DNA from: Vitellaria paradoxa
Taxonomy: Eukaryota > Streptophyta > Magnoliopsida > Ericales > Sapotaceae
DNA length: 64,000 nt
Direction: 5' to 3'
NCBI GenBank assembly: GCA_019916065.1
Contig: CM034233.1
Span: 6,082,516 to 6,146,515 of the forward strand
Part shown: positions 56,801 to 62,337 of the stretch, piece after piece
How the letters are laid out: every line of letters starts with the position of its first letter
Numbering within the stretch: position 1 is the stretch's first letter
Position numbers and translations under genes: made by a program
Notes under the pieces: model-generated
What the model saw: only the letters and a program-made list of their open reading frames with translations
The model's database searches: none
What the model was told of the DNA's origin: nothing

Positions 56801-59800
56801 AGAAGTTCCAGAAGAGTAGAATATGGTTCAAAATTGTTTAACTCATCTAGAATATATTAGGATTCATTTGTATGGCACTGGTAATGTACAATACCTCAAG
56901 GAGATTTTCAGACTTCTCTAACCGTTTTACAAGACCAGCCTGACGGCAGATCTGAGCAGCTATTTCATTATGAGGGAGACCAGCAGCAGAGAAAAGAGGG
57001 ATCTTCTGCCCGCGAGCAATGGAGTTCATAACATCAATTGTAGAAATCCCCGTCTGTATCATCTCTTCAGGATAGGTCCTTTCACTGGGGTTAATGGAGC
57101 TTCCTAAACAGACACGCAGCACATTACCATGTATGCAGAAAAAAGTAAAACATAGATCAAGAGCTAACACATTAATTGAAAATTTTTGATCTCCCTAACA
57201 AAACTCACCAGAAATATCTAGGTAAGCCTCAGGCAAGATCGAAGGTCCATTATCAATGGGCTTTCCAGAGCCATTAAATATGCGTCCAAGCATATCCAAT
57301 GAGACAGGAGTTTTCAAAACCTGTACAACAACAATTTGAAGGGACTGAGTAGCTAGAGTAACAAAAACAGAAGTACTCCTCTTTATTCAATGCTCAAGAT
57401 CAAAGGCTATGCTTTCAACATACAAACGCTTATCAATCACATAGCTTTACATGAGAGGGGAGAGAGAGAGAAGAATAGATGACAAATACATGCACACACA
57501 TGTAAAAAGAATTACTCCATTACAATGAGCCTCTATACACTGAGAGGGAAGCCTGCAAAAGTAAGTATGCGGTCATCACAAACATATAAATAAAACTTAT
57601 AAATAAAATGTGGCTTCTTACCGCACAACAAATTATTAAATCATGTTTTCTATTCAATATCCTACCCATTTTGACAAGGACAAGATTAATGAATAGTTGC
57701 CTTCAACAAATGTCCTAGTCACAGAGATTTTCCGTAATTAGATGTTCAAAAACTGCATATTTCTTTTTCTCAACCAAACTATTGGAAGAATCTGCCTTCC
57801 TTATGTTCCTTGAATTTACAAACTCTAAGAAGTGTGATCATCCACAATATCCATCAACTCAGTCTTGCAAAAGGTCAAACAATCGTCCACGTTGAAAACA
57901 AAAATATATAAGAAAAAACTAAAGAAAATATATACACCTCCCCTGTAAACTGAACAGTTGTGTATTTGTTATCAATCCCAGATGTTCCTTCAAAAACCTG
58001 GGGGAGAAAAGTAAAGGCAAAAAAAAAGCTAGTGTAAGTTTAGGAAAAAATCATTCATTGTGAATGATGGACAACTAAAAAAAGGCAGTCATTCAGTTGT
58101 ATAAATTATTACCTGCACAACAGCTTTCTCCCCATCAACTTCCAATACTTGACCACGACGGATTGTTCCATCTCCCAGACGAATATTGACAATCTCCTGA
58201 TATTTAGGACCCTGAAATTTCAAGAGAAAGTTTCAGATAATGAAAACTATTAAACTTTCAACAATAATATCACATCATGGTGGAAGAAAAAAATGGATGG
58301 ATGAAATTCATTGCATGGATAAACACACCTTCACTTTGTCAAGAATAACAAGTGGCCCTGCAACACCAGAGACTGTCCTGTACTCTGCAATTTGCAAAGC
58401 TCCAGATCAATATAATCCTTGCCATGAATATGACAGAGCAGCTAGTTGCCAAGCACAGTTTGACAGAAGATGGAATAGCAGACAAAAAGAGAGAAGAGTA
58501 CTTGACTACTTATTTATTCTACGTATGCTTTATGCATTCAAAAATGAGCCACAGTTTGCTTTTTAAGTCACTAGTAAACGGGATGATGGAGTGGAAGCAT
58601 TAGGAGCAACCATATCATCCATGGCCATGCAGGCAACACCTAATCATAAATAGGAGTATATTAGTACTCTATCTAAACTAGGCGAGGGACCTATCAGTTC
58701 ATCCAAGTAGTTGACCCAGCCAAATCCTTCATGAGGCTGAAATGTCCAGAAATACTGAACTTCATTAATGCTGGTCTGTTCAATCCTTTTGAATTGATTC
58801 ACAAATTATTGGTGGACACCTGTTAACAAATTGATTTACAAGATTGTACTTTCTTTTTCCCTCTATCATTTGTCGTTTTTTCATGAATATCCATTTTAAT
58901 GGTAAATTTGTTTTACACCGCAAAACATTATGGGTGCGGTTGGTGTGCAAAAAAAAGAAAGTGAAACCTTTTACAGCTTTTGCACTAGTGTTGCCATGTG
59001 TCACTTCTGGAAAAAAAAATGTGTTCAGTAAAAACTTGTAAAAATTAGAGAAAGTTGGAAAAAAATTGGAGAAATTTGGTAAAAGTTGTAGAATGTGTTT
59101 GGTAAATTTTAATGAAGAAAGTTCGTAATCAGTGAAAAGTTGGTAAAAATTGATGCTTACCAAACGGCTTCAACTAAGATATTCTAGCAATCGATCACAA
59201 AGTCCAAACTATTAATTTTTTTTTTAACAAGTAAATAAATTTATTGAAAATGCATCAAGGGAATGCCACCCAATAACAATAAAAAATCAAGCAATGCAAA
59301 CGTAGGGAACCATATTCTCAACAAAAGGCAAAAAACTTTGCACATTAGGTTCCTTTCCCTCCATAGCCATCTAAACAAATTAACCAAAAACAAACTCATT
59401 ACCCTATTCACCAAATTATTAATATTAAATGAAGAAATACATAGGAGTGAAATATGTAAGTTACTAAATCCTAAATTGCCACTATTATATCCCTTGTGAA
59501 ACTTAATAACTCCTTGCCCCATCAATCCACCTTGGCAGGAATACACTAGTTAATAGCTCTACCCATTTGGCTTTGCCGCAAAAATATTGCAAATCCAATT
59601 CCTAGCTTTTTACCAAGTAGTGATAGCACCCGACCATAAATTCAATCACCAATAATCCCCACATGAGCACACCCCATCTTTGAAGTGATGAAAGCGATTT
59701 GTGTCTCTCACGAAAATTTCTCTCACTTCAAATTTGGATATGAACTTTATAACAGCATGGCAATCGCCGCAAATTCTAAGGTTCTTTATAACTCGAATAG

Positions 59801-62330: not shown

Positions 62331-62337
62331 CTTCAAA
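62273..62337 (-). other. VHA-B: First coding exon of V-ATPase B
   Basis: Too short for a usual open-frame list. Minus strand: acceptor TTTGCAG, then TTTGAAG, then ATG and 19 codons ending GGCATGG before the donor GTAGGG. The split codon G|AG continues as EYRTVSG at 58,384. This fixes the start of the protein and shows the PPR gene is intronic. Confidence 0.9.

Follow-up and report, generated by a model that had tools for sequence, protein, structure and literature searches.

An intact DYW-type PPR gene lies on the same strand inside intron 1 of the V-ATPase subunit B gene in Vitellaria paradoxa

Results and Discussion

Structure of the V-ATPase Subunit B Gene

The analyzed window is a 64-kb stretch of Vitellaria paradoxa DNA. 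It carries a complete gene for V-ATPase subunit B (VHA-B) at 62,330–53,860 on the minus strand, with 14 coding exons (1,467 bp) that encode 488 aa. All 13 introns have GT-AG ends and fitting phases, and the joined frame has a single terminal stop. The gene was classed as plant-type V-ATPase subunit B on its full-length colinear coding sequence and spliceable exons. In the Diplodiscus gene model P0124, the VHA-B part aligns at 97% with residues 1–488. Residues 1–90, which span the joint between exons 1 and 2, align without gaps with the V-ATPase subunit B2 chain 7uw9_F (E = 6e-48), which we take to be the Citrus V-ATPase B2.

Coding exon 1 (62,273–62,330, 58 bp), placed by the gene model and the 7uw9_F alignment, encodes 19 residues plus one base, ends in phase 1 and has a GT donor. 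Coding exon 2 (58,329–58,384, 56 bp) has an AG acceptor and a GT donor. Translation of the joined exons showed that the codon split between them restores an unbroken VHA-B peptide. Intron 1 (58,385–62,272) is 3,888 bp long, whereas the other twelve introns are 87–617 bp. The remaining coding exons of the gene model, all on the minus strand, are exon 3 (58,113–58,211), exon 4 (57,938–57,997), exon 5 (57,209–57,320), exon 6 (56,895–57,103), exon 7 (56,231–56,359), exon 8 (55,545–55,682), exon 9 (55,109–55,259), exon 10 (54,918–55,000), exon 11 (54,518–54,565), exon 12 (54,308–54,361), exon 13 (54,137–54,220), and exon 14 with the stop codon (53,860–54,045). On sequence alone, the seven bases before the start codon (62,331–62,337) appear to close the 5′ UTR, following a likely UTR-intron acceptor (TTTGCAG/TTTGAAG-ATG). 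GTAAGT donor words occur upstream of this acceptor at 63,367 and 62,401.

PPR Gene in Intron 1

A sequence-only reading of the window had placed an intact DYW-type PPR gene inside VHA-B intron 1, on the strand of its host. This was confirmed, and the exon coordinates, phase, and GT-AG ends given there were all correct. The complete PPR frame (59,646–61,943, minus strand, 765 codons) lies wholly inside this one intron. In 500 base shuffles of the segment the longest open run was 180 codons, compared with the 765 of the real sequence. The PPR gene is intronless, and a search of the 64-kb window found no second copy.

The DYW-type assignment in that reading also holds. The domain order is PPR-E-(E+)-DYW. 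The PPR repeats (PF01535, 2.3e-60; PF13041, 1.9e-58), the E motif (92.7 bits, cut-off 27.3), and the DYW deaminase domain (PF14432, 147 bits) all exceeded the Pfam cut-offs, whereas the E+ motif reached 22 bits against a cut-off of 24. The protein keeps HSE at 697 and CGDC, and its C-terminus is CSCGDYW. We take these HxE, CxxC, and terminal DYW elements to be the motifs of the DYW deaminase domain.

The frame of 765 codons is intact, as had been claimed, but the protein itself is likely to be shorter. The likely start codon is Met-9 at 61,919, giving a coding sequence of 61,919–59,646 and 757 aa, because the first residue of the listed homologues mostly maps at or near codon 9. Of the 120 listed homologues, 43 begin exactly at residue 9 and 73 within residues 5–16; 24 begin earlier and 23 later, and some of these are fragments or fusions. 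The N-terminus M(T/S/A)RQ, as found at Met-9, occurs in 26 of the 120, and their median length is 756 aa.

Identity and Relatives of the PPR Gene

The homologue search scored 7,996 candidates and gave 5,058 matches, of which the best 120 were listed. Among these 120, the best matches were from Camellia sinensis and Sarracenia purpurea (81% identity each), and several sources label the matched group At1g20230. By sequence comparison, the PPR is an At1g20230 orthologue. A maximum likelihood tree was built from 40 rows, namely the window PPR and 39 proteins chosen from the 120; Arabidopsis At1g20230 itself is absent from it, and the group name is the label given by the sources. The window PPR grouped with Camellia, Sarracenia, Bertholletia, and P0103 (support 100/97), and the three named genera belong to the Ericales. 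The 40-row tree broadly follows species order.

The gene is unbroken, its amount of protein change is unremarkable, and it shows no sign of decay, since the domains are kept, identity to the best matches is 81%, and the end branch (0.16) is shorter than the median of the 40-row tree (0.24). DYW-type members of the PPR family are C-to-U editing factors in organelles. The protein is predicted from its family to perform C-to-U editing of an organelle transcript.

Other Features of the Window

The first 41 kb contain block duplications with 82–91% identity (7437–9561/30536–32648, 13239–14836/37217–38865, 1607–2752/40050–41179, and 1076–2025/15824–16753). They carry repeated pieces of one gene, in which Pfam YMGG marks a glycine-zipper stretch (40,027–40,290), and the duplicated gene looks to us like a NIP-type RING protein. 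A retrotransposon reverse transcriptase remnant (PF07727 RVT_2, 184 bits), presumably of copia type, lies at 18,327–19,367. Two direct repeats of about 2.1 kb (42,226–44,349 and 48,392–50,522) are 97.8% identical and probably represent the two LTRs of a young retrotransposon; the two open frames tested between them matched no Pfam family. A 1.8-kb imperfect palindrome (50,518–52,285), which matches its own reverse complement at 82% identity, adjoins the second repeat.

PPR and Pseudouridine Synthase in Lamiales Gene Models

Relatives of the same PPR were found joined to a pseudouridine synthase in other gene models. In seven of the 120 listed homologues (P0059, P0062, P0063, P0072, P0112, P0117, and P0120) the synthase N-half runs to its end and is followed by the PPR; P0062 lacks a middle piece of this N-half. 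The synthase N-terminus matched by P0043 and P0049 is shorter. In Morella P0067, the single case of its kind among the 120 listed, the PPR runs into a kinase EF-hand region.

A query with the C-terminal half of the synthase, length-limited so that normal synthases were dropped, gave 12 matches, three of which contain an At1g20230-group PPR (P0112, P0117, and P0241). In Perilla P0112 and Phtheirospermum P0117 the PPR stands between the N-half and the C-half of the synthase on the same strand, and in Rehmannia P0241 it is followed by a synthase C-half beginning with YKVIE. In the intact synthases P0242 and P0247 one half passes directly into the other at ARHAAS-RYKVIE. In P0242, P0243, P0245, and P0247, the synthase is preceded by a calcium-dependent kinase or by the EF-hand part of one. 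In P0244 the synthase is joined to a thioredoxin-type protein read as nucleoredoxin, and in P0246 to a protein named after the galactose-oxidase beta-propeller; P0248–P0250 are more distant matches to the C-half. The eight species behind the seven N-half models and P0241 are all Lamiales. The simplest reading of these gene models, which are not DNA, suggests that a synthase intron houses the At1g20230-group PPR in Lamiales, with both genes on one strand. It is also possible that the PPR is flanked there by two synthase copies and is not nested, and the gene models would look alike.

A diverged stretch resembling the synthase N-terminus precedes the PPR in P0112 (after the N-half) and opens the models P0049, P0052, and P0111. 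It scores 72–113, against shuffle maxima of 40–45. The synthase-like stretch of P0063 scores 57 (shuffle maximum 45), and that of P0043 scores 203 (shuffle maximum 46) and may be the first exon of the synthase itself. Since a diverged synthase-like stretch precedes the PPR, a partial duplication of the synthase appears to have taken part in the Lamiales arrangement. In P0052 (Sesamum), P0112 (Perilla), P0049, and P0111, the diverged stretch may have become the leader of the PPR itself.

These models are a warning for annotation: nested PPR genes can be fused into their neighbors, which seems to have happened in the Lamiales models.

Transcription of the PPR and Its Host

The 353 bp upstream of Met-9 (61,920–62,272, minus strand) are the candidate region for the promoter and 5′ UTR of the PPR. 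A TATA/CAAT word scan of 62,272–61,944 found no TATA element and two CAAT words only, and the same interval contains 10 ATGs. A host message that retains intron 1 would carry 13 ATGs ahead of the PPR frame, counted from the VHA-B start codon onward; in this message, that start codon itself opens a frame of 34 codons. Upstream of the likely UTR acceptor there is one further ATG, at 62,389 (ATG scan up to 62,420). About 400 bp past the PPR stop, a candidate poly(A) signal AATAAA is located at 59,240–59,245 on the minus strand. An A10 run starts at 59,225, 20 bases after the start of the AATAAA at 59,245. Intron 1 contains a second AATAAA at 58,518.

We think it probable, by a fair measure, that the two genes form a same-strand nested pair in which the PPR has its own promoter and poly(A) site and the host is spliced across it. 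The PPR promoter would lie in the approximately 350 bp before the PPR start codon, and the PPR transcript would have a 3′ end of its own, at a poly(A) site near 59,245–59,220. The VHA-B pre-mRNA would read through the PPR and then remove it with intron 1. In Arabidopsis, U1 snRNP is reported to suppress premature intronic polyadenylation (excerpt of PMC11489095). For this, the poly(A) site of the PPR would have to be outcompeted by such U1-dependent suppression or by plain splicing. Transcriptional interference between VHA-B and PPR is plausible by analogy with the human TXNDC12/KTI12 pair, and the two transcription units would show weak mutual interference rather than co-expression.

A reading in which the VHA-B promoter drives the PPR through an alternative 3′ end or splicing, with the genes co-regulated or competing, seems doubtful to us. 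The two routes would be retention of intron 1 with polyadenylation near 59,240, or splicing of exon 1 to an acceptor ahead of the PPR. The shared strand agrees with both. Among 21 AG sites tested from exon 1 to the start region of the PPR, one (61,927) gives an exon-1 fusion in frame with the PPR, and the product would be a protein of 779 aa. Seven Lamiales models joining the synthase 5′ half to the PPR hint at expression from a host promoter elsewhere, or at prediction errors; as predictions, they may be artefacts. The 13 ATGs ahead of the PPR frame make expression from the host promoter by the retained-intron route unlikely and favor a separate PPR promoter. The acceptor at 61,927 has no pyrimidine tract (8 pyrimidines in the 18 bases before it), and one in-frame site in 21 is not an above-chance yield. 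The sequence-only reading proposed that PPR expression could be tied to the pump gene; direct coupling is unlikely given the 13 ATGs on the intron-retaining message. A further reading, that the genes are adjacent and not nested, with the true VHA-B first exon below 59,646 and the exon at 62,330 a relic, is highly improbable. A non-homologous first exon could escape sequence comparison, and the Kingdonia gene model P0129 has unrelated sequence first and VHA-B from residue 18 on; it comes from another species, may contain an error, and also hints that another plant has an intron at about the position of the exon 1/2 joint. Against adjacency, the conserved N-terminus of plant VHA-B is encoded in exon 1, which has the right phase and a GT donor. 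The sequence-only reading had pointed to a second exon 1 near exon 2, or to another first exon below 59,646, as counter-evidence to nesting. The exon-1 peptide matched full-length only once within the 64-kb window, and the unspliced reading upstream of exon 2 runs for seven codons without an ATG and then stops. A duplicated VHA-B 5′ region was not found inside intron 1, where the short flank-intron matches (E = 0.001–1) were read as low-complexity chance.

Linkage and Origin of the Nesting

AGI locus numbers follow chromosome order. The PPR bears the database name At1g20230, and in Arabidopsis VHA-B3 is AT1G20260 and VHA-B1 is AT1G76030 (excerpt of PMC9280200). The linkage of PPR and VHA-B looks old because At1g20230 and AT1G20260 are close in number, and the old neighborhood supposed in the sequence-only reading agrees with these locus numbers. 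We assume that CPK29 and a pseudouridine synthase (At1g76040 and At1g76050) adjoin VHA-B1 in Arabidopsis. A search of the 64-kb window for synthase or kinase pieces gave no significant match (best E = 1.4).

A combined PPR and VHA-B query gave 366 VHA-B matches, and none of the 120 listed joined a PPR to VHA-B; the search was scored on the VHA-B part. As fused models are rare and the 120 are the best of the 366, this is weak evidence on nesting elsewhere. VHA-B was likewise absent from the 130 PPR-homologue and synthase-fusion proteins. As no PPR-VHA-B fusion was listed, nesting in VHA-B is seen only in the Vitellaria window. A search for the nesting pattern gave no match in viral contigs and 10 pattern matches in prokaryotic contigs, none of them a relative, which is uninformative on plants. 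Two Zingiber models, P0121 and P0122 (1,330 and 1,251 aa), scored 1,785 and 1,705 bits, compared with about 1,000 per VHA-B, which suggests tandem VHA-B copies.

Linkage of PPR and VHA-B probably predates the nesting. The nesting itself probably stems from a local rearrangement, such as a tandem duplication that was partly lost again, and not from retroposition. Local rearrangement fits better because the VHA-B 3′ end also occurs in the window as decayed copies and no target-site duplication was found. The decayed copies are at 25,873–26,772 (87% identical to 53,536–54,395) and 3,647–4,216 (84% identical to 53,118–53,719). For the duplication test, the 40 bases after the A run were compared with the upstream flank and with 500 random intron pieces. 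No target-site duplication above chance was found around the PPR; the longest shared word was 7 nt, the commonest value for the random pieces (232/500).

Arrival of the PPR by retroposition of an mRNA into intron 1 is thus improbable. The intronless PPR, the AATAAA at 59,245, and the A10 run from 59,225 are what a retrocopy could leave behind, and an old target-site duplication could have decayed. Yet the tree in broad species order makes the PPR look like the ancestral gene, and if the locus numbers reflect linkage with VHA-B in Arabidopsis, a retrocopy would have had to land in the linked gene by coincidence. Erroneous joining of two loci during assembly has the least to recommend it and is barely credible: the window does contain many block duplications, but it contains no N, the PPR and intron 1 lie outside the block duplications, and linkage of PPR and VHA-B is expected from the Arabidopsis locus numbers.

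We only tentatively raise a wider possibility, namely that the At1g20230 PPR is recurrently nested on the strand of its host in different housekeeping genes, in VHA-B intron 1 in Ericales and in the synthase in Lamiales, that VHA-B, kinase, synthase, and PPR form one conserved block, and that host transcription may tune the dose of the editing factor. If PPR hosts truly differ between Ericales and Lamiales, repeated origins of nesting could be compared through one gene. The VHA-B/PPR nest, which pairs a constitutive pump gene with a likely editing factor of organelles, is itself a natural test of how far a promoter and a poly(A) site are tolerated inside an intron of an essential plant gene. 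The report on U1 telescripting in Arabidopsis sharpens the question of tolerance for intronic poly(A) sites (excerpt of PMC11489095).

Comparison with Known Nested Genes

No description of a PPR nested in a V-ATPase gene or in a pseudouridine synthase was found in the open-licence literature, and no plant survey of nested genes was noticed among the open-licence literature matches listed. Same-strand intronic nesting itself is already known. What is new here is that Lamiales models put the At1g20230-group PPR between the halves of a pseudouridine synthase. The Lamiales PPR belongs to the same orthologue group as the Vitellaria PPR and lies on the same strand, apparently in an intron of its neighbor, as in Vitellaria; the host is a pseudouridine synthase in Lamiales and VHA-B in Vitellaria, and the Lamiales cases are known from fused models. 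Arabidopsis At1g20230 and VHA-B3 belong to the same two families as the Vitellaria pair and have close locus numbers; they are un-nested as far as these numbers suggest, whereas the Vitellaria pair is nested.

Nested protein-coding genes generally consist of a short, intronless internal gene and a host with many introns (excerpts of PMC8467205 and PMC3488318). Among simple pairs, same-strand nesting was counted in 76 of 296 human and 55 of 248 mouse cases, a minority though not a rare one (excerpt of PMC8467205). VHA-B/PPR follows the general pattern, with an intronless internal gene and an intron-rich host, the reference counts being from mammals.

In the human TXNDC12/KTI12 pair, the single-exon KTI12 lies in tandem orientation in the second TXNDC12 intron. 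KTI12 is reported to be transcribed independently of the promoter upstream of it (a point given there as data not shown), and in a minigene, upstream transcription rose about five-fold once KTI12 was deleted (PMC3192792). This pair is from an animal, its genes are unrelated to those studied here, and its interference was measured, whereas VHA-B/PPR is known as sequence. Both pairs have a single-exon gene in the same orientation in an early intron of a multi-exon host.
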